A stretch of 35,041 nt of DNA from Deltaproteobacteria bacterium (GCA_024276465.1 JAJRXD010000032.1:1-35041), one strand, 5' to 3'. Numbered from the stretch's first letter, positions 17,321 through 35,041 are shown. The notes: a model not told the origin generated them from the sequence alone. Made by a program: numbers and translations.

Positions 17321-17545
17321 ATGAGCGCCTATAAATTTTCAGTAGTTGTTGAAAAAAACAGTGATGGCTATTTTGCTTTCTGCCCGGATCTGCAGGGGTG
17401 TTATACACAGGGTGATTCTTATGAAGAAGTTATGGAGAACATCAAGGATGCTATTCGACTTCATATAGAAGACAGAATTGAAAGCGGTGAAGATATCCCA
17501 CAATCTGAATCTGTAAGTTTAACCATGATGGAAGTAGCAATATGA
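17321..17545 (+). CDS. hicB: HicB-family antitoxin
   Basis: This 74-aa protein has the partial RNase-H-like HicB fold (YKFSVVVEKNSDGYFAFCPDLQGCYTQGDSYEEVMENIKDAIRLHIE). It has no long C-terminal DNA-binding extension, though the tail SESVSLTMMEVAI may be a dimer strand. It should neutralise the HicA toxin encoded next. The ATG has AAGGAG ten bases upstream and overlaps hicA by four bases (ATGA), giving coupled translation. The order antitoxin-toxin is the reverse of the E. coli hicAB arrangement but is common elsewhere. Confidence 0.9.
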   Translation: MSAYKFSVVVEKNSDGYFAFCPDLQGCYTQGDSYEEVMENIKDAIRLHIEDRIESGEDIPQSESVSLTMMEVAI

Positions 17546-17769
17546 CCGGAAAATTGCCACGAATTACTGCTGGAGAAACAATCAGAGCATTAGAAAAAGC
17601 AGGGTTTTTCTTTTCACGACAGAGTGGGAGTCATAAAATATACAAGAACAAAGAGGGGAAAAGAACAACTATTCCATATCACTCAGGCAGAATTCTCCAC
17701 CCCAAGACCTTAAAAAGTATTTTACAAGACGCAGATCTTTCAATAGATAAGTTTATAGAATTACTGTAA
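17542..17769 (+). CDS. hicA: HicA-family mRNA interferase toxin
   Basis: This 75-aa protein has the double-stranded-RNA-binding-like HicA fold, with the catalytic His31 in RQSGSHKIYKN, the PRITAGETIRALEKAGF start and a HSGRILHPKTLKSILQDADLS helix. HicA toxins cleave mRNA when freed from HicB. The frame is complete and the catalytic residue is present, so the pair looks active. Confidence 0.92.
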   Translation: MTGKLPRITAGETIRALEKAGFFFSRQSGSHKIYKNKEGKRTTIPYHSGRILHPKTLKSILQDADLSIDKFIELL

Positions 17770-22539: not shown

Positions 22540-24588
22540 ATGCATGTAAAAACAAAAATATTTTCATTAATCGTTGCCATAACCGCCATTACTTTTCTGG
22601 TTACAGGCGCTGCCCGGGCAGATATCTCACCACCACCGGCTAATCAGCAGTTTGGCACTGATGATGGAATATTTAACAATCTTGTCGAGATGGATTGCCG
22701 TGCATGCCACGATGACCCCAGCCATATCTGTTCTACTTCAAATATTGACCGGCATCATTTGCTGTATGGAAGTACTCTTCGACAGGGTGAATGTTCTGTC
22801 AATGGCAATGTCTGTCTGTCTGATGCTGGCTGTGATCCCACCATCTGTTCGGATAATAACACAGGTGTACTTTGCAGTGTTGACACTGACTGTCCCGGTT
22901 TTGCTTTAGGCGAAACATGCGGTGAGGTATGTATTGGTGAAACAGCTGCCCCTGTTGTTGATGCTGACCAGGATGGAATTGAGGATACTGTCTATGGGTG
23001 CTTGAACTGCCATGCACAGGATAGCGGCGGTGGGGTTATCTCATTCGTTGTAGAAAGAGATTGCCTGCAGTGCCATGACCAGGTTCCAGGGGAAGGCTCT
23101 GTCCATCACCTGACTGCCACGGCACAAGGACTCAATTCGCCGATAGGGGATCCGAATGTTGGTGACTGCACTCCCTGTCATGGCAGCCTTGTTGACGATA
23201 TCGGAGATGGACATATGATACCTGTCTATACTCCTTCACTGGTAACTCCTTCTCCCAGCAATGGTGATGGTGTTCCACTCAACAGCCGTGGAAACGGTGC
23301 AGGTGCCTGTAATTACTGCCATGACTCTGGCACTGATAATGCCACTGGAGTTCAAGTCTTCACAAATGCTGACACCCATCATAATACGGGTGTCTTCATG
23401 TCTGAAACAGGTGTGCCAAATAACAGTGCATGCTTATGGTGTCACAATATGTTTCAGCCTGAAGAGTATAATATTCGAACGTGTGAGGGCTGCCACGGAT
23501 ATGAGTCACTGCATAACATTGCTGTTGACTCAGATACTGCCTGTTTGCTTGATCCAGGCGACCCATCCTGTGAGGTTGTCATAGGCGGAGAAAATCCAGG
23601 ATACAGCCATGTCGGTCATGATAATGACTGCTGGGGTTGCCATGGATTTGCTCAAACCAGTGCTGCGCTTGGTTCCGGACCTGCAGTACCGTTTATCGAT
23701 AACTCTGATGTACTGGTAATTACTGCAGGTACAGATACTGCGCTTACTCTGACTGGTTCGGCATTTACAAATCTTATTGATACGTTCCAGTGGGTCTCAT
23801 CAGTTGTTCTCACTGCTGAAGATGGTTCATCGATGCTCCTCAGCCCTGACAGCATCACTCAGGGATCATTGACAGTAACTATCCCTGCCACACTGTTACC
23901 CGGAAACTATACACTCCGGGCAGTAAAGGGGAACTATACCTCAAGCAACCCTGTTGTCATCAGTATTAAGCCTGAGGTTGTGATAACTGATGTCATCTAC
24001 GACGACAGTACTGGGATAATAAGGATCAACGGATCCGGGTTTAGTGCTGCACCGCCAGAGGGATCAGAAGAGTACATCAATGTAAAGGTCGATAATACAC
24101 CCGTAGTGACCTCATCCTGGACAGACACCCAGATTACAGCGTCTGTACCAAGCTATGAGGGAAGCGTATTCGTTAATTCTCTATTCTGCTCAGCCAGCAT
24201 TGAGAGCAGTCCTGAAATATGCAGCAATGGATCAGATGATGATGGAGATGGACTTGTGGACTGTTATGACCCTGACTGCTCTGACGACCTGTCATGTCCC
24301 GAGAATTGTGACAATGGAATAGATGATGATGCTGATGGATCTGTTGACTGTGACGATTCAGAGTGTACCGGCAATCCTGTATGTAGTTGTGAAAACTGTA
24401 TTGCTGACATAAATGCAGACGGAATTGTTGATATTTTCGACCTGGCAATATTAAAGAATGAATACACCAGGACTGACTGCAGTATAAATAACCCATGCTC
24501 TTCAGACCTGAATAAGGACAACGTTGTTGATATTTTCGACCTGGCAATAATAAAGAATGAATATTTAAAAGAAAACTGTTGTATATAG
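22540..24588 (+). CDS. Octaheme c-type cytochrome with IPT, MopE-like and dockerin modules
   Basis: This 682-aa exported protein has a signal peptide (cleavage after AARA, about 27) and eight CXXCH haem sites (CRACH 53-57, CLNCH, CLQCH, CTPCH, CNYCH, CLWCH, CEGCH, CWGCH). Between haems 1 and 2 is a disulfide-type Cys-rich insert. Then comes an IPT/TIG-like double beta domain (LVITAGTDTALTLTGSAF..., PEVVITDVIYDD...GSGF). Two MopE-like acidic repeats follow (CSNGSDDDGDGLVDCYDPDC, CDNGIDDDADGSVDCDDSEC), probably calcium sites. The end is a double dockerin type-I repeat (ADINADGIVDIFDLAILKNEY; DLNKDNVVDIFDLAIIKNEY) and a terminal CCI. A perfect AGGAGGTG precedes the ATG. The likely role is extracellular electron transfer. 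Confidence 0.93.
   Translation: MHVKTKIFSLIVAITAITFLVTGAARADISPPPANQQFGTDDGIFNNLVEMDCRACHDDPSHICSTSNIDRHHLLYGSTLRQGECSVNGNVCLSDAGCDPTICSDNNTGVLCSVDTDCPGFALGETCGEVCIGETAAPVVDADQDGIEDTVYGCLNCHAQDSGGGVISFVVERDCLQCHDQVPGEGSVHHLTATAQGLNSPIGDPNVGDCTPCHGSLVDDIGDGHMIPVYTPSLVTPSPSNGDGVPLNSRGNGAGACNYCHDSGTDNATGVQVFTNADTHHNTGVFMSETGVPNNSACLWCHNMFQPEEYNIRTCEGCHGYESLHNIAVDSDTACLLDPGDPSCEVVIGGENPGYSHVGHDNDCWGCHGFAQTSAALGSGPAVPFIDNSDVLVITAGTDTALTLTGSAFTNLIDTFQWVSSVVLTAEDGSSMLLSPDSITQGSLTVTIPATLLPGNYTLRAVKGNYTSSNPVVISIKPEVVITDVIYDDSTGIIRINGSGFSAAPPEGSEEYINVKVDNTPVVTSSWTDTQITASVPSYEGSVFVNSLFCSASIESSPEICSNGSDDDGDGLVDCYDPDCSDDLSCPENCDNGIDDDADGSVDCDDSECTGNPVCSCENCIADINADGIVDIFDLAILKNEYTRTDCSINNPCSSDLNKDNVVDIFDLAIIKNEYLKENCCI
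24427..24563 (+). repeat. DNA direct repeat encoding dockerin loops
   Basis: The 38-nt segments at 24427-24464 and 24526-24563 differ at one position. Close relatives occur in the 3' ends of the three other dockerin genes (near 27690, 27780, 29240, 29335, 30950 and 31045). Such near-identity within one gene points to recent duplication or conversion. Confidence 0.8.
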
Positions 24589-24689
24589 GAAAGTTTTTAA
24601 AGGAGGAGAAAATAAAAAGCATAAATCAGGCAACTTGCTAAAAAGCAAGATATTTTAATAATTTAATCTTCAAATTGAAAGGATTTGTC

Positions 24690-27600
24690 ATGAGTAAAAA
24701 ATTAACATTAATTTCATATGTCATTATGGCTTTCATTGCATTTTTTTCCCTGTCAGCAGGGAATGCAATAGCAGCCATTGATGGCGGATACATTGGAACG
24801 GCTGCCTGCCTCTCCTGTCATCCCGGAGAACATGCAGAGTTCATAGAATCAGGCCACCCGTATAAGTTCAGGCAAACGAACGGCGCTGACTGCGGCGCAG
24901 GAGCCTGCGATCCAATTACGAATCTGCTCCCAACACCGGCAATTGCAAGCATCAGCACATTAACAAACAATGCCCTGATAATCGATGATGGATCAGGATA
25001 TCTTGACTGGTCGGCAATCCAGTATATTATCGGCGGTTGGGGCTGGAAGGCCAGATTCGGCATGCTTGATGCCACAGATGCTGACGGAGATGGAATTGAC
25101 GATACAGGCTATGTCTGGACAGGTTCAGCAGTTCAGAATAATATCCTGGCAGGAGGCACCTGGAGCGGCTACCACGCCGGTGAGGACAAAGCTTACAACT
25201 GCGGTACCTGTCACAACACAAACGGTACAACAGATATGCTGGCAAGCAGGACCGAGCCATGGGCTACAATACCCGGGACAGGCACTGGTTTTACCAGCCA
25301 GTGGACCTTTGACGGTGTCCAGTGCGAGGCATGCCATGGACCTGGCGAGGCACATGAAGCAGCTGAAAACGATCCTTATCCCACAGATACTACAAAGACT
25401 CTCTGTGGTATGTGCCATCATCGCAGTGGAGCTGACGATCACGGTGCAGACACAAAGGGCGGCTACATAAGACACCATGAACAATTCAATGAGTCTGTCG
25501 GAAATTCACTTGAACCTGGAGTACACGCATCCCTGGAATGCATTGAGTGCCACGATCCGCATAAACGCTCGCACACTGTGCCGGATTCAGTTGCAACGGC
25601 TTTAGGCATTACTGACAATGACATGACAGCTGAGGAAAGGGGTGCCGTAGTCTCCTGTGCATCCTGCCACAATAAAAATGTGCGGTATCACAGCAATATC
25701 CAGTGCATTGACTGCCACATGGCAGAGGTTACAAAATCAGCAACTGCTGAAGCAGGGACCTATGGCAAAAAGGGTGATGTAAAGTCTCACATCGTCAAAA
25801 TAAATCCAGATCCTCTGGCAGAAGACACAGCAGCTTCTCCAAACTCTGTGACTGGTACCAACGTTGCACATAACTATGTGACTCTCAACTACGCATGCGG
25901 AAAATGCCATGACTCGAGCATGAGCACCTATGCTGGCGTCCAGCTTAGTATGGCTGAACTTGGAAACTATGCAAATCAAATCCACACGTCACCGGTAAAT
26001 CAGAATCTCGGTTTCCCTGACATCGCATTTAACGCTCTTGCGGAAGCAGACTGTCGCGTGTGTCATGGTGTAGTTGCTGATGATCACCATATGCTGTACG
26101 GCACCTCTATTCCCTATGGAGAGTGCTCTGTTGTTCTCGGAACCTGCGCTAATGGAGATCCCTGCGGTGTAGATGATGACTGTGTTGATAACTCAACCTG
26201 TGTACCTGGTGCTCCTGTTGCCTGTTTAACCGATACTGATTGCGATGTTTCACCGGAAAACGTTTGTACTGTCACGGGACAACTCTGTACACCTGGGGTT
26301 ACTGACTGCGGAAGCCCGTGGACAGGACAAGATTGCGGTCAGCCTCTGTGTGTTGGCGAATCAAAAGTACCTGTACCTGATTCAGACAGCGATGGATCAA
26401 ATGATACAAATTATGCCTGTTTAAGCTGCCATGAACAAACTCTGGTTGGCGGTGTTATTACCTTTACGGTTACCAGAGACTGTACCCAGTGTCATGTTGT
26501 TGACAGCCAGAACGAGGGTTCTGTTCATCACCTGACCGGTGATGCAAAAGCCGGTGTATGCACATCATGCCATGGTGACTTTGTAGATGATAAGGACGAT
26601 GGCCATGCTATCCCGACTTACAGTCCTTCACTGGTAACTCCTGAACCAAGCTCACACGGTGATGCAATGTGTGATGACGGAATAACTCCCTGTCCGAATG
26701 GCTGGGAATGCGGCTCTGGAACCTGTATAGAACCAGCTACCCCGGCTGGAGGGTGTAACTACTGCCATGATACCGGTACAGACACGGGAAGTGGACTGGA
26801 TGTAATAAATAATCACGATACTCACCATAACGCGGGAGTACACAAGAATGAATTGGGCGGCAGTGACAGTGCAATTTGTGCATGGTGTCATAAATCCGGA
26901 AACCCGCATGCTCCTGGAGGAATGGACGCAGACCGTATCAGGGTGTGTGAAAACTGCCACGGATATGAGTCACTCCACAACATCCAGGATGACTCGCCTA
27001 ATCCCGGCAATGTTGGCTCTATTGTCGTGGGTGCTGAAGATGCTGGATTCGGTCATGTGGGAGCAAACAATCCTGGAGGTGGTGACGACTGCTGGGGATG
27101 CCATGGATTTTCTACAGCTAACGTGCTTCCTTCAAGCCCGACAACACCGTATATCAGTGATTCTGACACTGGTACCATCACAGCCGGAACTGACGCGGTA
27201 GTCACACTGACCGGAGCTTCATTTACAAATGATGCCTTCACATCTGATGTTGTTCTTACTGCAGCTAATGGCTCATCAGTCACTATAGCTCCTGACAGCA
27301 TCTCCGTTGGGTCCTTGACAGTGACTATACCGGGCACAACAGCCCCAGGCACCTATAAAGTCCAGGCAGTAAAGAGTGGTGCGGCAAGTAATCCTGTTGT
27401 TATCATCATTACTCCGCAGGTTGTGATTACCTCTACAAACTGCGACGAAGAAGCCGGAACCATGACGATTAACGGATCAGGGTTCGGCGACCCACCACCA
27501 GCTGGAACTGAGGCCTACATTAATGTTATTCTGGACGGCGCATCAGCAGAAATCATCTCCTGGGCAGATACACAAATTACGATTTCTGTCCCCAACTGCG

Positions 27601-27845
27601 GTGAAGCAACAGTCAATACTCTGTTAGGTTCATCCTCTGATGGCGGTTCCTGCACAGCGTGTTCAGCTGACAGTAATAATGATGGCACAATCAATATATT
27701 AGACCTGGTAATAATGAAAAATGAATATAACAGTACTGGTTGCAATCCATGCGAGGCTGACTTCAATGATGACGGTAATGTAAATATATTTGACCTGCTA
27801 ATAATGAAAAAAGAATATTCAAAAAGCAACTGTTGTATTCAGTAG
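24690..27845 (+). CDS. 16-haem c-type cytochrome with IPT and dockerin modules
   Basis: This protein of about 1051 aa starts at the ATG at 24690 (GAAAGGA upstream; the TTG at 24675 overlaps that site). A signal peptide is cleaved near AIA-A. Sixteen CXXCH motifs are counted. The first eight (CLSCH, CGTCH, CEACH, CGMCH, CIECH, CASCH, CIDCH, CGKCH) form a module unlike the others, with HP/HH ligand patterns of cytochrome c554-like proteins. The last eight (CRVCH to CWGCH) are paralogous to the whole octaheme protein upstream, including the Cys-rich insert. An IPT/TIG domain pair, a dockerin double repeat (ADSNNDGTINILDLVIMKNEY; ADFNDDGNVNIFDLLIMKKEY) and terminal CCIQ follow. It looks like a fusion that lengthens a haem wire. 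Confidence 0.93.
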   Translation: MSKKLTLISYVIMAFIAFFSLSAGNAIAAIDGGYIGTAACLSCHPGEHAEFIESGHPYKFRQTNGADCGAGACDPITNLLPTPAIASISTLTNNALIIDDGSGYLDWSAIQYIIGGWGWKARFGMLDATDADGDGIDDTGYVWTGSAVQNNILAGGTWSGYHAGEDKAYNCGTCHNTNGTTDMLASRTEPWATIPGTGTGFTSQWTFDGVQCEACHGPGEAHEAAENDPYPTDTTKTLCGMCHHRSGADDHGADTKGGYIRHHEQFNESVGNSLEPGVHASLECIECHDPHKRSHTVPDSVATALGITDNDMTAEERGAVVSCASCHNKNVRYHSNIQCIDCHMAEVTKSATAEAGTYGKKGDVKSHIVKINPDPLAEDTAASPNSVTGTNVAHNYVTLNYACGKCHDSSMSTYAGVQLSMAELGNYANQIHTSPVNQNLGFPDIAFNALAEADCRVCHGVVADDHHMLYGTSIPYGECSVVLGTCANGDPCGVDDDCVDNSTCVPGAPVACLTDTDCDVSPENVCTVTGQLCTPGVTDCGSPWTGQDCGQPLCVGESKVPVPDSDSDGSNDTNYACLSCHEQTLVGGVITFTVTRDCTQCHVVDSQNEGSVHHLTGDAKAGVCTSCHGDFVDDKDDGHAIPTYSPSLVTPEPSSHGDAMCDDGITPCPNGWECGSGTCIEPATPAGGCNYCHDTGTDTGSGLDVINNHDTHHNAGVHKNELGGSDSAICAWCHKSGNPHAPGGMDADRIRVCENCHGYESLHNIQDDSPNPGNVGSIVVGAEDAGFGHVGANNPGGGDDCWGCHGFSTANVLPSSPTTPYISDSDTGTITAGTDAVVTLTGASFTNDAFTSDVVLTAANGSSVTIAPDSISVGSLTVTIPGTTAPGTYKVQAVKSGAASNPVVIIITPQVVITSTNCDEEAGTMTINGSGFGDPPPAGTEAYINVILDGASAEIISWADTQITISVPNCGEATVNTLLGSSSDGGSCTACSADSNNDGTINILDLVIMKNEYNSTGCNPCEADFNDDGNVNIFDLLIMKKEYSKSNCCIQ

Positions 27846-27862
27846 TAGTTGTTTTAAGTAAG

Positions 27863-27905
27863 AAGGGAAGGGAGCGTGCCTCTTGGCACGTGCCCCTCCC
27901 CTTTT
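27863..27905 (+). terminator. Rho-independent terminator
   Basis: A GC-rich hairpin (gggagcgtgcc-tctt-ggcacgtgcccctccc, with an internal asymmetry) is followed by tttta. It separates the first two cytochrome genes from the protease gene. Confidence 0.75.
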
Positions 27906-28057
27906 AAATAATAATGCATGATAAACTTATTTAGAAACCTATATCGGTTATAATTTATCCCGATCTACTCAACTCAACTGTTCGATTATCCGGTCAGGCC
28001 CGTTAATAAACAAGAGTATCGATGTAAATGATAATCTATATAGAGGAGTTACTGATA

Positions 28058-29404
28058 ATGAAACACAGGTTATTTCTTAGTTTAACAGTAATCATTACCC
28101 TGGTTTTGCCATGCCAGGCCCTTTCTGCAGAGAGATCTGTAATTATAGGTTTCAATAAAAGACCGGGACTTTCTGAAAGAGCACTGATCCATGAAGCAAA
28201 AGGTGTTATCAAGCGCAGCTATCACCTGATCCATGCAATGTCAGTTAATCTTCCTGAAAGGCAGTTGGAAAAGCTAAGAAAAAACAGACGGGTAGCCTAT
28301 ATAGAAAACGACGAAATTATAACATCTGTAGAGCCTCTGCCAGGCGACGAGTACATTAATGACTGGGGGATATGGCATATAGGTGCTTATGAAGCTCATT
28401 CCAGCGGAAACAGAGGCACAGGGGTTAAGATTGCAGTTATTGATACAGGAATAGACTATACTCACGAAGACCTTGATGACAATTACGCAGGCGGTTTTGA
28501 TTTTGTATTTGATGACTTTGATCCTTATGATGATAATACAAACAGCCATGGAACACACGTGTCAGGCATCATTGCTGCTGAAGAAAACGGCACTGGTGTA
28601 ATAGGTGTTGCCCCTGAGGCTGAATTATATGCTCTAAAAGTCTTAGACGGGGCCGGCTTCGGACTGACCAGTTGGGTGATAGCAGCTATTGAGTGGGGTG
28701 TTGATAACGGGATACAAATTGCCAATTTAAGTCTTGAAGGCCCTGACTCACAAGCCCTGCAAAATGCCTGTGACAGTGCTTATAGCGCAGGGGTACTTCT
28801 CATAGCAGCTGGGGGCAATACAATCGGAGGAAGTGTGCGCTATCCTGCAGGATATGATTCGGTAGTAGCGGTTACAGCTACTGATGCAGATGATATAAGT
28901 GCCTGGTTTTCACCAGTCGGGCCCGAGGTTGAACTGTCTGCTCCTGGCATTAGTATCCTGTCCACTGTTACGGGTGGCGGCTATGACTTTTTAAGCGGCA
29001 CCTCACAGGCAGCACCTCATGTAGCTGGAGCTGCAGCCCTGTTTGTCTTGTCAAACACTGACGATTTTAATGGCGATGGGGTTCTTAATAATGAAGATGT
29101 GAGGCTGAAGCTCCAGATAACTGCTGTTGATCTTGGAGAAACCGGTTTAGACAGCAGATATGGCTTTGGACTGGTCAACGCAGCAGCAGTAGCAGATACC
29201 TGTGAGGTGTGCCTTGCTGATTGCGATAATAACACTAAGGTCGATATTTTTGACCTGGCAATAATGAAAAATGAATATAACAGAAGGGATTGCGATATTT
29301 ACTCATGCACTGCAGACTTTGACAACAGCAGCATTGTCGATGTCTATGACCTTAATATTATAAAAAATGAATTTAGTAGAAGGGACTGTTGTCTGCAAAA
29401 ATAA
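28058..29404 (+). CDS. Secreted subtilisin-family (S8) protease with dockerin
   Basis: This 448-aa protein starts at the ATG at 28058 (GAGGAG nine bases upstream) and has a signal peptide (LSA, about 24). An I9-like propeptide follows (about 26-90: RSVIIGFNKRPGLSERALIHE...AYIENDEI). The S8 catalytic domain has Asp129 (AVIDTGIDYTHEDL), His164 (SHGTHVSG), oxyanion Asn254 and Ser316 (SGTSQAAPHVAG), all present. The end is a dockerin double repeat (ADCDNNTKVDIFDLAIMKNEY; ADFDNSSIVDVYDLNIIKNEF) and CCLQK. Lying among multihaem cytochromes, it may mature them, as the subtilisin-like OzpA is reported to do for OmcZ in Geobacter. That role is inference. Confidence 0.93.
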   Translation: MKHRLFLSLTVIITLVLPCQALSAERSVIIGFNKRPGLSERALIHEAKGVIKRSYHLIHAMSVNLPERQLEKLRKNRRVAYIENDEIITSVEPLPGDEYINDWGIWHIGAYEAHSSGNRGTGVKIAVIDTGIDYTHEDLDDNYAGGFDFVFDDFDPYDDNTNSHGTHVSGIIAAEENGTGVIGVAPEAELYALKVLDGAGFGLTSWVIAAIEWGVDNGIQIANLSLEGPDSQALQNACDSAYSAGVLLIAAGGNTIGGSVRYPAGYDSVVAVTATDADDISAWFSPVGPEVELSAPGISILSTVTGGGYDFLSGTSQAAPHVAGAAALFVLSNTDDFNGDGVLNNEDVRLKLQITAVDLGETGLDSRYGFGLVNAAAVADTCEVCLADCDNNTKVDIFDLAIMKNEYNRRDCDIYSCTADFDNSSIVDVYDLNIIKNEFSRRDCCLQK

Positions 29405-29440
29405 ATGCAGGATTTTTATCCATTTCAAAGGAGGTTACCC

Positions 29441-31108
29441 ATGATAAAAATAATATGTGCTTTGGCTGTTATATTATGCACATTAATAATGGTACCCTGT
29501 CAACTTTTCGCTGATATTCCAGCCCCACCAGTAAATCAGACAATTGGAATAAATGATGGTGTATACAGCGACATGACCGAGGCAGACTGTCGCTTGTGTC
29601 ATGAAAATCCTGACCAGTTCCCTGTGGATGATAAAACTGTTCCGGATCGCCACCACCTCCTGTACGGCACTGAAATCCCTGACTCAACAGATGCTCCCAA
29701 TGGATCTCCAGGGGAACTCTTTAACTGCCTTTCCTGTCACGGAATGGATAACAGCACCGGGACTGTACAATTTGTCCTGGAAAGAGACTGCACAATATGC
29801 CACACTCAGGATTCATTTTTTGAATTAACAGTACATCACAGAACAGACCTTGCTCTGGGGAATCTGCCGCAGGGACCTGACTGCAAGTTTTGTCATGGAT
29901 CGATCGTTGATAATATGGAAGATGGCCACTGGATCCCGGATTATGAACCTTCTCTTGTAACACCAAGACCGAGTGGGGGTGATGGATTGCCCCTGAACAT
30001 CGAGGGTAACGGTGCCGGGGCATGCGATTACTGCCATTCTACAGGAACAGGCAACCCGTCTGTTCCCGGCACAGATAATGATACGGGCATATTAGTCTAT
30101 TCAAATGAGGACACGCATCACGAAACCGGATTCTGGGGGGGGCTTGGCGCTCATGGGTTTGTATGTTACTGGTGCCATGACACCAGCTTTCCATCAGGCA
30201 GTGAATCCTACTTGCAGATCCGGGTCTGCGAGAACTGTCACGGACGTGATTCACTGCACAATATCCAGGTGGATTCTGATGGCGACGGCATCATCAGCCC
30301 CGGGGTGGAACTGCCAGGATACGGTCATATTGGCGATCCTGATGAATGCTGGGGCTGCCATGGGTTCAGCATGTCAACAGAACCACCATCTTTTGGCCCC
30401 ATAATACCTGGGATCAGCAGTATCAGCAAGTCTGTTCTGACTGCAGGCGCTAATGAAACAATTACGTTAACCGGTTCTGCTTTTATCAATATTTATCAGG
30501 AATCTGAGTTGACTTCATCCATAAGCCTGTCTGGAGATAATGGATCTTCAATCGACCTGACACCTGTTCTGCTCACTGAGAGTTCGATGACAGTGGTTAT
30601 ACCTGGAACCCTTGATTCCGGAAACTATCTCCTGAGGGCGGTTAAGCTTGACAAGTCAAGCAATCCTGTGGTCATCAGCATCAAGCCTGATGTTATGATT
30701 AATCATGTTAACTGCGATGAAGAGGCTGATATTTTGACGATTTCAGGATCTGGCTTTGGTGATACACCTCCGGAGGAAACAGAAGCGTATATTAACGTTA
30801 AGGTGAATGGTATTTCAGCAGAGATCACATCCTGGACAGATACAGAAATACAGGCTCTTGTCACCAGCTACGAAACTCTTGCTGTCAATGCCCTGTTCGG
30901 ATCATCCAACTGCGAAAAGTGCAATGCAGATTTTGATAATAACACAAAAGTTGATATTTTTGACCTTGTAATAATGAAAAATGAATTTAGCAGTACTGAC
31001 TGCGATGTAAATCCATGCTTCTCTGACTGCAATGAAGACAACAGTGTTGACATATTCGACCTGATGATAATGAAGAATGATTATACAAAAAACAACTGCT
31101 GTCCGTGA
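29441..31108 (+). CDS. Octaheme c-type cytochrome with IPT and dockerin modules
   Basis: This protein of about 555 aa starts at the ATG at 29441 after a perfect AAGGAGG; the frame from 29405 would include that site. A signal peptide ends near LFA-DIP. The eight CXXCH sites (CRLCH, CLSCH, CTICH, CKFCH, CDYCH, CYWCH, CENCH, CWGCH) are in the same order and context as in the first cytochrome (HHLLYGTEIP, VHH, DGHWIPDYEPSLVTPRPS, SLHNIQVDSD). The Cys-rich insert between haems 1 and 2 is short and Cys-free. IPT/TIG domains, a dockerin double repeat (ADFDNNTKVDIFDLVIMKNEF; DCNEDNSVDIFDLMIMKNDY) and CCP follow. Confidence 0.93.
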   Translation: MIKIICALAVILCTLIMVPCQLFADIPAPPVNQTIGINDGVYSDMTEADCRLCHENPDQFPVDDKTVPDRHHLLYGTEIPDSTDAPNGSPGELFNCLSCHGMDNSTGTVQFVLERDCTICHTQDSFFELTVHHRTDLALGNLPQGPDCKFCHGSIVDNMEDGHWIPDYEPSLVTPRPSGGDGLPLNIEGNGAGACDYCHSTGTGNPSVPGTDNDTGILVYSNEDTHHETGFWGGLGAHGFVCYWCHDTSFPSGSESYLQIRVCENCHGRDSLHNIQVDSDGDGIISPGVELPGYGHIGDPDECWGCHGFSMSTEPPSFGPIIPGISSISKSVLTAGANETITLTGSAFINIYQESELTSSISLSGDNGSSIDLTPVLLTESSMTVVIPGTLDSGNYLLRAVKLDKSSNPVVISIKPDVMINHVNCDEEADILTISGSGFGDTPPEETEAYINVKVNGISAEITSWTDTEIQALVTSYETLAVNALFGSSNCEKCNADFDNNTKVDIFDLVIMKNEFSSTDCDVNPCFSDCNEDNSVDIFDLMIMKNDYTKNNCCP

Positions 31109-31218: not shown

Positions 31219-33189
31219 ATGACTAAACAAAAAAGAGGGTTAACAATGATAAGGTTCAATATCTTCCAAATACTCCTGACAGGCATTCTGATCCTGCTTC
31301 CAATCAATGCCTTGACAGTGGAATCGCCCCATGAATCAAGCAATGGGGTTAACTGTCAGGACTGCCACCAGTTTATCCTAACAGGTGGCAAGCTGGTCAT
31401 AAACCTTCCAAGAGGTAATGAGCAGGAAACAGTATGTAAAAACTGTCACAATCCTGCCGGGCTGGCATCAGGCATGAGCAGCATCAGCAATCACGTGGTG
31501 AATAACGGGAATACTATCATTGACTGCGGATCGTGTCACGACCCGCACAATCCTGACACAACTCTGGATCCACACACCGGTATAGAGGCAGTAAATTTGA
31601 AGCTCATTCGAGGAAAAGCACGTCACGTCGATACTGCTCTTGATCTTGCAATATTCCAGGAAAGACCCGCCAACTTCGCATTCGATGAAAATAGCCCGCC
31701 GTGGAACGGAATCTGCCAGACCTGTCACACACAGACTGCCCATCACACTAACGACAATTCAACTGACCACCAGCATGAACAGGGTCAGGACTGCACATCC
31801 TGCCACACCCACGAAGACGGATTCATGCCGTCCGGGGGAGATTGCGCCGGCTGTCACAGTAATCCCCAGAATAATGGTGACGGAATTCCGGTTGAAGGCA
31901 GGCGACCAGTTGTTGAGGAATTCCCCACAGGCAGTGCAGGGCTGCATGCCCACTACGGTTCAGAGCTTAATACCGATGGTTGTCTGGTTTGCCACAGTGT
32001 TGGCACTCACATGGACGGGTATGTGGAACTTGTTGACCCCGACAACAGCAGCCTCATTTACCGCTTTATAAGCCCGGGAGACCTGACCTCTGATCCTGAC
32101 CTCTCCAGCTTCTGCTCACACTGCCATGATGATGATGGGGCACAGCGCCTGTCAGATCCAGCTGATCCGTTCGGCAACGGAAATTCACCTGCAAATATTG
32201 CTGTCCGATTCTCAGGCACCCTTCAGTGGGACGAATGGTATGGTGACTGGTGTTTTGGCTCTGAAGGAACACTGCGTCAGGTCAACAGCCATCATGACAT
32301 CAGTGACAGCGATCAGGCCTGGAGCGGTGCCAAGATAGAGTGCCTGAACTGCCACGGTGCTCACAACGCCTCTGCTGACACCCCTATTGCTGACCCCTCC
32401 AACCAGATTCTGACCTGGTCAGGCACCATAAATGAATTCTGTTTAACCTGCCATTACGGTGGCAATGGGCCTCTGGATCCACTTTTTCCAGCTGATGCGT
32501 TAGGCATGAATATTTCCGGACCTGCAGTTGCTATGAGAGGACTTGACGCCGGAGGCAACTGCGGTGCATACAACATGTCACCCTGGTGGGTTGATTACAC
32601 ATGGACGTTTTCGCCCCATGGCAGTGACTCAAAGCGCGGGTGGGAAGGCTACTCAGGTGCTCCAGGCTATGAACTTGACTGCACTGTCTGCCACGACCCT
32701 CATGGGTCATACTCTGACTCCAACACCCTTGGAAATCCGTATATGATTCGTGATTTTGTTGACGGCACACAGTTTGTCGATGACGGAGTTCGCCCCGGAG
32801 GAGCATGGACAGGGCCTCCCTGGGACAACAGCACACTTGGCACTTCGGGTTCAGTAGTTGTAACTATAACCGGTACCGAGGTTGACTGGGGCAGCAGTGG
32901 GAGCCTGTGCATTAAATGTCACGCCAACTGGCTTTCAGCCTATGACTGGCATGCCTACTGCAACGGCTGCATGACCTGTCATGGCCACGGTCAGTCCTGG
33001 GATGGAAATGACTGGGGACAGGCACCTGACAACAGTACAAACTGCTCAGAAATATCAGGTTCCTCGAGCTCAAGTCTGACAACTCAGGAATCTGGTGGCG
33101 TAAAAGCCAGCGGCTCCCAGTCTTCCTGTACATATCAGGAAAATCCTGGAAAGAGCTGCAGCGAATGTCACGATGGACACAGATGGTAG
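31219..33189 (+). CDS. 14-haem secreted c-type cytochrome without dockerin
   Basis: This 656-aa protein starts at the ATG at 31219 (AAAGGAG upstream); a later in-frame ATG (MIRFNIF, 31246) is closer to the hydrophobic signal. Fourteen CXXCH sites are counted, from CQDCH near residue 46 to CSECH near the C-terminus, with long haem-poor loops between about 330 and 500. The CGSCHDPHNP and CTVCHDPHGSYS motifs are typical of doubled-CXXCH and OmcX-type proteins. There is no IPT or dockerin module and no Cys-Cys end, and the C-terminal CHDGHRW is haem-bound. It may be the long-range wire that the docked cytochromes contact. A PPIase gene follows. Confidence 0.92.
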   Translation: MTKQKRGLTMIRFNIFQILLTGILILLPINALTVESPHESSNGVNCQDCHQFILTGGKLVINLPRGNEQETVCKNCHNPAGLASGMSSISNHVVNNGNTIIDCGSCHDPHNPDTTLDPHTGIEAVNLKLIRGKARHVDTALDLAIFQERPANFAFDENSPPWNGICQTCHTQTAHHTNDNSTDHQHEQGQDCTSCHTHEDGFMPSGGDCAGCHSNPQNNGDGIPVEGRRPVVEEFPTGSAGLHAHYGSELNTDGCLVCHSVGTHMDGYVELVDPDNSSLIYRFISPGDLTSDPDLSSFCSHCHDDDGAQRLSDPADPFGNGNSPANIAVRFSGTLQWDEWYGDWCFGSEGTLRQVNSHHDISDSDQAWSGAKIECLNCHGAHNASADTPIADPSNQILTWSGTINEFCLTCHYGGNGPLDPLFPADALGMNISGPAVAMRGLDAGGNCGAYNMSPWWVDYTWTFSPHGSDSKRGWEGYSGAPGYELDCTVCHDPHGSYSDSNTLGNPYMIRDFVDGTQFVDDGVRPGGAWTGPPWDNSTLGTSGSVVVTITGTEVDWGSSGSLCIKCHANWLSAYDWHAYCNGCMTCHGHGQSWDGNDWGQAPDNSTNCSEISGSSSSSLTTQESGGVKASGSQSSCTYQENPGKSCSECHDGHRW

Positions 33190-33348
33190 TTAAAGCCATA
33201 AGAGGAAAATGAAGCCAGCAACAAAACAATAAATCTTTAACTGCCAGCTGTTGTTTGTGAAAAATACTGATTAGGGTTTTAGGGTTATTTGCCATGTATG
33301 CATTAATTTTATAAAACTTGTTACGGAAATAAAAATAAGAGGAATAAA

Positions 33349-34373
33349 ATGGAAAAACTTCGAAAAAAAATTACTTTTTTTCTTTCCTGAGCTGCCTGAC
33401 AATTACTTTCTGTTTATCTGTCTTTACTGCAGGCACGTCACATTCAGTAAATCAGAGCGAAACAAAAAACAGAAAAGTGGTGGCCAGATTAAACGGGAAA
33501 GCAATTTATGAGGACCAGTTAACCCAAAATGTACAAAAGAGCTTAAGGAAGTTTAAAAAGTATGGCATGAGAAAAGATTCCACTGATCTGGTCAAGCGTT
33601 TAAAAAAGAAAGCTTTAAGTAAAGTGATTGACAATGAACTTATATATCAGGAAAGCCGGAAATTGAAGATTGGCGATCTTGATAAAAAGGTTGAGCAACA
33701 GTTCCAGACTGAAAGAAGAAAGCATAAGACTGAGCATCAATTTAAAAGCTACTTAAAAATGAAAAACCTTACTGTAGAAGGCTTGAGAGAGTCTCTAAGA
33801 AAAAAAATTCTTGTTAATGAATATCTCAAAAAAAATGGTATATCTGAACCGGAAATTTCAGAAGATCTTTTGAAACGTTTTTATAACGATAATCCGAATT
33901 CCTATTACAGGGATGAGGCTGTCAAGGTCAGCCATATATTAATAAAAGTGCCCTGGGAGGCAACACGTGAGGAAAGAAAAAATGCCCTGGAAAAAGCAGA
34001 GATGGTCCACAGGGAGATTTTAGATGGCAGGGACTTTGCTGAGATGGCAAAAAAATATTCAGACTGTAACAGTGCCTCCGGGGGTGGGAACTTGAATTAC
34101 ATTAAAAGAGGCTATATGCCAGAAGAGTTTGACAAAACAGCATTTGCCATGAAAAAAAATGCAGTAAGTAACGTGGTGGAAACAAAATTCGGCTACCATA
34201 TAATTAAAGTTTTTGACAAAACACCGGAAGGACCAGCACCATACAATGAAGTAAAAGGTTTTATCAGAAAATATTTTCAAGGTCAGGAATCAAAAAAAAG
34301 GCTTGCTTCTCATATAGCAGAGCTGAAAAAAAAAGCAAAAATAGAAATTTTGTTAGATGAAGCACAAAAGTAA
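33349..34373 (+). CDS. Parvulin-type (PpiC/SurA-like) peptidyl-prolyl isomerase, frameshifted start
   Basis: From about 33477 there is a clean 298-aa frame: a SurA-N-like helical region (VARLNGKAIYEDQL...LIYQESRKL) and a parvulin domain (about 150-250) with VSHILIK, FAEMAKKYSDCNSASGGGNLNYIKRGYMPEEFDKTAF and VVETKFGYHIIKV. The GTG at 33477 gives no signal peptide. Upstream, an ATG at 33349 (aagagga leader) reads MEKLRKKITFFLS-TGA; one extra T in the T7 run near 33380 joins it to FLSCLTITFCLSVFTAGTSHS and then the isomerase, restoring a signal sequence. It probably folds the exported cytochromes; PPIase genes often adjoin nanowire cytochrome genes. Confidence 0.82.
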
Positions 34374-34457
34374 AACAATTATTCTGGAACATGAAACATG
34401 AAACATAAAAACATTAGCTTCAAAAACAGTGTTATTAATTACAATAAAGAATTGACA

Positions 34458-35041
34458 ATGAAAAGAAAACTTTTACCTCGAACCGTCAATATTTTACTGA
34501 TTCTGCTTTTTTTGTTATCAAATACAGCCACTGCTGCTGGGGAAACTGACCATATTAAATTACTACCCCCTGTTTCCGGCACAATCAGTGGTTACTGCTT
34601 TAATGACGTTAATAAGAATGGCATAATAGACGACTCCGAGGGAGCATTAGAAGGAGTCAGGATTTCACTGAAACGTCTCCTTCTGACTGTATTTCCCGTG
34701 AATGCAGGCTCTGTGACAACTGACATGGACGGGAGATTTGAGTTTGCAGGGCTCAGGCCCGGGAATTATTCAATAGGAGCAGAAGTAGAAGATAATGAAA
34801 ATTCAACCACCGCAAACCCTGTTTATATCCGTATAGGAATTATCAGCAAAAGCCTGACAGCAGATTTTGGTATATTTAAAACACCACCCCCGCCATCTCC
34901 TCCGCAACCAGTAAGCACAACAACTGTCATTCCAGCCACAACTACAACTGTTAACAATGCTATTGACGACAGCACAACCACAATCACTACGACCACTCCT
35001 CCTTCTGGTGGAAGCAGTGGCGGAGGATCAGGAGGAAGTAC
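34458..35041 (+). CDS. Secreted SdrD_B-like surface protein, runs off the window
   Basis: The frame from the ATG at 34458 (an in-frame ATG also lies at 34398) is open to the right edge. It has a signal peptide (LLILLFLLSNTATAA, about residue 27). A prealbumin-like SdrD_B/Cna-B domain follows (GTISGYCFNDVNKNGIIDDSEGALEGVRISL...TTDMDGRFEFAGLRPGNYSI) with its calcium-type DVNKNGIIDDSE loop. A Pro/Thr linker and a GGSSGGGSGGS stretch come at the edge. It looks like a multi-domain surface or scaffold protein, and it is a candidate place to look for cohesins just beyond the window. Confidence 0.8.
   Translation, partial: MKRKLLPRTVNILLILLFLLSNTATAAGETDHIKLLPPVSGTISGYCFNDVNKNGIIDDSEGALEGVRISLKRLLLTVFPVNAGSVTTDMDGRFEFAGLRPGNYSIGAEVEDNENSTTANPVYIRIGIISKSLTADFGIFKTPPPPSPPQPVSTTTVIPATTTTVNNAIDDSTTTITTTTPPSGGSSGGGSGGS

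Follow-up and report, generated by a model that had tools for sequence, protein, structure and literature searches.

Why should secreted multihaem cytochromes, and the protease encoded among them, end in dockerins? The question is raised by a stretch of 35,041 nucleotides (hereafter the window) from a Deltaproteobacteria bacterium (GCA_024276465.1, JAJRXD010000032.1:1-35041), whose metagenome-assembled genome of 4.1 Mb is 95% complete and fragmented into 181 contigs. An initial annotation had described four adjacent genes for secreted proteins, three cytochromes with 8, 16 and 8 haems and a protease of the S8 family, each ending in two type-I dockerin repeats, and had proposed that cohesin-dockerin contacts assemble them into an extracellular electron-transfer complex, a redox counterpart of the cellulosome. 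The four open reading frames (ORFs) are indeed neighbours, with the domains described and CxxCH counts of 8, 16, 0 and 8 (Table 1). The cytochromes prove to be of a known nanowire-forming type and the protease to match its maturase, and this bears directly on what the dockerins are likely to do.

An OmcZ-type nanowire cluster

When the last of the three cytochromes (29405-31108) was compared with PDB sequences using phmmer, it matched 8D9M with an E-value of 5e-65 (residues 27-490) and 7LQ5 with an E-value of 4e-37, both of which are OmcZ of Geobacter (PMC9473688, PMC11208441). The alignment with 8D9M spans the haem core and the C-terminal beta-domains and takes in the stretch where the cleavage site has been mapped; the tandem C-terminal beta-sandwich pro-domains are present, since the alignment extends to residue 490 and the TIG family (PF01833) scores above its cut-off. 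The three cytochromes are paralogues with a mutual identity of about 50%, and in the 16-haem protein an additional N-terminal 8-haem module is joined to the OmcZ-type half.

The Geobacter OmcZ precursor, of 50 kDa, is cut after about residue 284 by the subtilase OzpA, which removes the tandem immunoglobulin (Ig) domains, missing from the filament, and leaves the wire-forming octahaem subunit (PMC9473688). The OmcZ set includes a prolyl isomerase, and the tail has been described as self-inhibitory (PMC11208441). In the protease of the window, the catalytic motifs DTGID, HGTH and GTSQAAP are all present. Genes for OmcZ, an S8 protease and a prolyl isomerase are consecutive, in this same order, in 13 foreign loci (Nitrospirota, Thermodesulfobacteriota, Gammaproteobacteria and others). 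OmcZ homology and the omcZ-protease-isomerase gene set together show that the window holds a known nanowire cluster rather than a group of unrelated cytochromes. The assignment of the three cytochromes as OmcZ-type nanowire precursors is well supported, as is the match of the S8 protease to OzpA, the maturase of OmcZ. In one Nitrospiraceae contig (L074:1-3030), two tandem omcZ genes precede the protease and isomerase genes; tandem omcZ is thus not specific to the window.

The site equivalent to the OmcZ cut lies just past a CWGCHGF motif, the last CxxCH being at nucleotides 23629, 27090 and 30347. The dockerin follows the beta-domains, within the C-terminal region whose removal is predicted from the Geobacter protein. 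With the dockerin, by this analogy, on a segment destined for removal by the protease, a function in organising maturation or placement is more likely than one in holding the mature electron carriers.

All three OmcZ copies of the window are tagged in this way, unlike the foreign homologues: none of the 21 examined (17, plus 4 from genomes of the same phylum) bears a dockerin, and their C-termini fall at the second TIG domain, close to it, or in repeats of another kind. The three tagged cytochromes being paralogues, their tags do not count as three independent events. Four OzpA homologues from elsewhere were also checked for a dockerin; the sole resemblance was an incomplete EF-hand-like stretch, below threshold, that overlaps the end of the S8 domain.

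Untagged OmcZ homologues (L075-L080, L165, L166) often have a short C-terminal tail rich in lysine and arginine, such as KKPSTRR, RRPRR or KKRRRRR, which is possibly another retention signal, here replaced by the dockerin. Two others (L083:9950-11605 and L088:3932-5521) have thrombospondin-3-like or left-handed-beta-helix-like repeats in the pro-region instead of TIG domains.

The dockerin modules

Searched with PF00404, whose cut-off is 22.9 bits, the four proteins gave two-repeat matches of 31.4, 38.9, 22.2 and 24.7 bits in gene order. The third value, that of the protease, is below the cut-off for the protein taken whole; in the genome search the same tag, at 27.3 bits, exceeds it. In all eight repeats, loop positions 1, 3, 5 and 9 are occupied by D, N or S and position 12 by D, so that the calcium loops are intact, and the tags also match dockerins in the PDB. 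Their identity as dockerins is therefore well supported, as had been claimed at the outset, and they may pair with cohesins. Loop positions 10-11, which are recognition positions of classical dockerins, read 'IF' in most repeats of the aligned tags, which suggests one shared type of acceptor.

All tags have four near-invariant cysteines, located just before loop 1, after helix 1, before loop 2 and after the last helix. Judging from their positions, the first could pair with the fourth and the second with the third in two symmetric disulfides, of which one would close the ends of the domain; other dockerins close their ends by a stacking 'intramolecular clasp' (PMC5934362). The four tags of the window share a subtype, with CxxC at the start and CC at the end, that is absent from the other 18 aligned. 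The tag tree did not resolve whether they form a clade (2 changes; 6 of 500 shuffles gave as low a number).

The tag in the genome and its relatives

A profile (A3) built from 22 tags of this genome retrieved about 30 copies from its 4.1 Mb, nearly all at the extreme C-terminus, and a chance origin of the window tags is excluded by this number and position. Five of the carriers are multihaem cytochromes, on three contigs. The two that lie outside the window are a metallophosphatase-like protein fused to a 4-haem cytochrome (contig C102) and an 8-haem MtrC-like cytochrome (contig C171). Other carriers include a subtilase, a calcineurin-like phosphatase, a leucine-rich repeat (LRR) protein, an Lcl_C (DUF1566-type) protein and TSP3 proteins. 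On another contig (G000:C98; L019:7872-10574 and L019:5702-7099), dockerin-tagged proteins consist mostly of an irregular 'CPxxxTxCPxxPTxCP' cysteine-proline repeat.

Among 197 genomes, the source included, the tag profile matched the source genome and, weakly, two genomes of another family. Four-cysteine dockerins accompany cohesins in two relatives: in one of the same phylum (G053), a cohesin with a PEP-CTERM anchor is followed by four-cysteine dockerin proteins, and in the other (G148) a cohesin-dockerin fusion lies inside a cluster of such dockerins.

Candidate acceptors

A genome-wide search with the cohesin family PF00963 returned nothing at E<=0.001; the weak matches that appear when the limit is relaxed to E<=10 include two within dockerin-bearing proteins. 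The conclusion that the genome has no cohesin, drawn from PF00963 alone, was nevertheless rejected, since profile-profile comparison and the cohesins of relatives reveal divergent modules. Two candidate module families were built, coh1 with 10 copies in the genome and coh2 with about 15, and compared using hhalign with a reference of ten PF00963-positive cohesins of relatives. The coh1 family reached a probability of 95%; coh2 reached 86%, and 94% once more of its members were included, versus 0.1-7.5% for controls (TIG domains and dockerins). The cohesin search thus came back empty at the Pfam cut-off and positive at the level of about 25 divergent cohesin-like modules. Neither outcome that the initial annotation had named as fatal to it, dockerin matches lacking the calcium residues or a genome devoid of cohesins, was therefore obtained. 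A search of the coh1 and coh2 profiles against PDB sequences retrieved no cohesin. The coh2 family is nearly private to this genome, being found in two others of the 297 searched.

The cohesin profile of the relatives (A6) matches a domain on contig C10 of the source genome with an E-value of 5.7e-11, the best cohesin-profile match of the genome. This domain is connected to the window by paralogy: the SdrD_B gene at the end of the window has its closest paralogue on C10, where it matches the N-terminus of the C10 protein. The paralogue continues past a comparable linker into the cohesin of C10, while the window copy ends inside the linker with the contig. Elsewhere, some cohesin-like modules are doubled (C61, C87, C35), some are fused to a dockerin (C85, C60, C24, C61), and others belong to proteins whose C-terminus carries a transmembrane segment and a basic tail (C31; C61:1126-2700).

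Next to the gene for the dockerin-tagged 8-haem cytochrome of C171, in divergent orientation, lies a gene for a coh1 protein. This protein, of 211 residues (L092:6050-6685), has an amphipathic-looking C-terminal stretch, GIFGKIKGFFKGLWK, a possible membrane-binding anchor. On another contig (G000:C87:1-24803; L018, L161), consecutive genes encode secreted proteins with one or two coh2 modules each, several of which share a C-terminal domain ending like 'DNPFxExIxAGFEI'; the run is possibly a scaffold cluster.

Possible roles of the dockerins

The explanation tentatively favoured here is that the window contains an OmcZ-type nanowire cluster in which the pro-cytochromes and their maturase dock, via their dockerins, on a shared surface scaffold, and in which cleavage frees the wire subunit. 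After secretion, pro-OmcZ and protease would plug by their dockerins into common cohesin-like surface proteins, some of them membrane-anchored. The protease would cut directly past the eighth haem, like OzpA of Geobacter; the TIG-TIG-dockerin tail would remain docked and the octahaem subunit would be released to polymerise. The dockerin would thereby concentrate substrate and maturase and set the place where wire assembly starts. That the scaffold is a true platform for nanowire biogenesis, co-localising precursor and protease, deciding where and when a filament starts, and left with the docked tail, is possible, and I advance it with more reserve.

Several observations weigh against this explanation. 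The best PF00963 match in the genome scores 18.7 bits for a cut-off of 24.1 bits, and AlphaFold models of the two cohesin-like families have a predicted local distance difference test (pLDDT) of 45 and 47, from shallow, 3-row alignments. Cohesin-like modules that share a protein with a dockerin may be purely structural. Cleavage in this organism is assumed from Geobacter. Finally, the tag is not confined to redox proteins: phosphatases, proteases, LRR and TSP3 proteins make up most of its carriers, and a general localisation tag is as economical a reading of its distribution.

The first alternative follows the original proposal: the tail is retained, and cohesin-like scaffolds hold the mature cytochromes in place, forming a fixed extracellular complex for electron transfer or a conductive matrix. 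It draws on the spread of dockerin-tagged multihaem cytochromes, five on three contigs, and on the multi-module and anchored cohesin-like proteins, but the known system closest to the window proteins removes exactly this C-terminus, and a maturase gene lies in the cluster. The cytochromes of C171 and C102 do not belong, judged by Pfam content, to the OmcZ type, so no removal of their tail is expected, and it is above all for them that this reading is plausible. Overall I consider it rather unlikely. What survives of the original proposal is the dockerin identity of the tags; a simple redox counterpart of the cellulosome is not supported, the cytochromes being OmcZ precursors accompanied by an OzpA-type maturase and the tag being used on many non-redox proteins as well.

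Another possibility is that the dockerin-like module is a C-terminal signal for localisation at the surface or export, read by a receptor other than a cohesin, with the cytochromes as mere passengers. The extreme C-terminal position, the near-invariant cysteines, the variety of about 30 unrelated carriers and the rarity of the tag among relatives (two others among the 197 genomes) would all agree with such a signal. However, the tags lack the hydrophobic or basic tail of CTERM signals; they retain both calcium loops and the pseudo-twofold recognition positions, and the genome has expanded cohesin-like families. I consider a signal of that kind unlikely. Least probable is that the tag was spliced onto one omcZ gene and spread by tandem duplication and gene conversion, with no role in nanowires: the cytochromes are paralogues and the tag tree is compatible with local copying, but the protease, which is not a paralogue of them, bears the same tag subtype as its presumed substrates, unlike the other 18 aligned tags, and calcium ligands are complete in eight of eight repeats.

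If precursors and maturase do dock on a common scaffold, two open points of nanowire biology are touched, namely what prevents the OmcZ precursor from polymerising prematurely and where OzpA acts; the presence of the same plug on substrate and protease makes both directly testable with small recombinant parts. Docking would also give a role in extracellular electron transfer to the abundant, unexplained non-cellulosomal dockerins of anaerobic methanotrophic (ANME) archaea and their bacterial partners, and would provide an existing module with which conductive protein wires could be positioned on surfaces.

Organization of the locus

The cluster extends past the four tagged genes to a 14-haem cytochrome, the prolyl isomerase and the SdrD_B protein (Table 1). 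The ORF of cytochrome 2 spans 24675-27845, its likely ATG being at 24690. The prolyl isomerase ORF begins with GTG and has no signal peptide at that start; upstream (33190-33620), an ATG and a signal-peptide-like stretch are found in two different frames, around homopolymer runs, and the gene looks frameshifted there, genuinely or through assembly. At 17321-17769 of the window, two small genes with an ATGA overlap resemble HicB and HicA, in the order antitoxin then toxin, and may encode such a pair.

Table 1. Features of the dockerin-tagged cytochrome cluster (window coordinates)
Feature	Coordinates	Strand	Description
OmcZ-type octahaem cytochrome 1	22540..24588	+	Signal peptide, 8-haem core, TIG/beta domains, acidic double-disulfide repeat, dockerin tag
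16-haem cytochrome 2	24690..27845	+	N-terminal 8-haem module and OmcZ-type 8-haem core, TIG domains, dockerin tag
OzpA-type subtilisin-like protease	28028..29404	+	Peptidase_S8 and Inhibitor_I9 propeptide, C-terminal dockerin tag
OmcZ-type octahaem cytochrome 3	29405..31108	+	8-haem core, TIG domains, dockerin tag
14-haem secreted cytochrome within the cluster, without dockerin	31219..33189	+	
PPIC-type prolyl isomerase	33477..34373	+	Third conserved member of omcZ-protease-prolyl isomerase clusters
SdrD_B surface protein, truncated by the contig end inside an S/T/G linker	34398..35041	+	
Dockerin tag of cytochrome 1	24388..24588	+	Four-cysteine type-I-like, window subtype
Dockerin tag of cytochrome 2	27654..27842	+	Four-cysteine type-I-like, window subtype
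Dockerin tag of S8 protease	29201..29398	+	Four-cysteine type-I-like, window subtype
Dockerin tag of cytochrome 3	30911..31105	+	Four-cysteine type-I-like, window subtype

Comparison with known systems

Both the OmcZ/OzpA system and the non-cellulosomal cohesin/dockerin sets of ANME archaea and their partners are already known; a search of the open-licence literature found no paper on dockerins on OmcZ-type cytochromes or on their protease.

With the type-I dockerin-cohesin pairs of cellulosomes, the window tags have in common an internal symmetry and a pair of F-hand calcium loops whose ligands are intact; they differ by their four near-invariant cysteines and their 'IF' recognition positions. 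No cellulases are seen among the carriers and the only candidate acceptors are divergent cohesin-like modules; among those tagged or cohesin-like proteins that were scanned, none showed a glycoside hydrolase or carbohydrate-binding module, and the system is in this respect not a cellulosome. The non-cellulosomal sets of ANME archaea and syntrophic sulfate reducers (PMC9012536, PMC10553843, PMC5244752) likewise place cohesins and dockerins in electron-exchanging anaerobes. Their dockerin carriers, as far as the parts of these reports consulted describe them, are adhesins and binding proteins of ABC transporters and not cytochromes or nanowire maturases, and a role of cohesin/dockerin in multihaem-cytochrome adhesion has been speculated upon (PMC5244752).

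The closest known system is OmcZ/OzpA of Geobacter sulfurreducens, with homologues in bacteria, ANME archaea and Borgs (PMC9473688, PMC9012536, PMC11208441). It has the same octahaem core and tandem C-terminal beta-sandwich domains, and the same adjacent subtilase and prolyl isomerase, in conserved gene order. The window differs from it by the dockerins that end the cytochromes and the protease (0 of the 21 foreign homologues being tagged), and by the presence of three omcZ paralogues, one of which is fused to a second 8-haem module.

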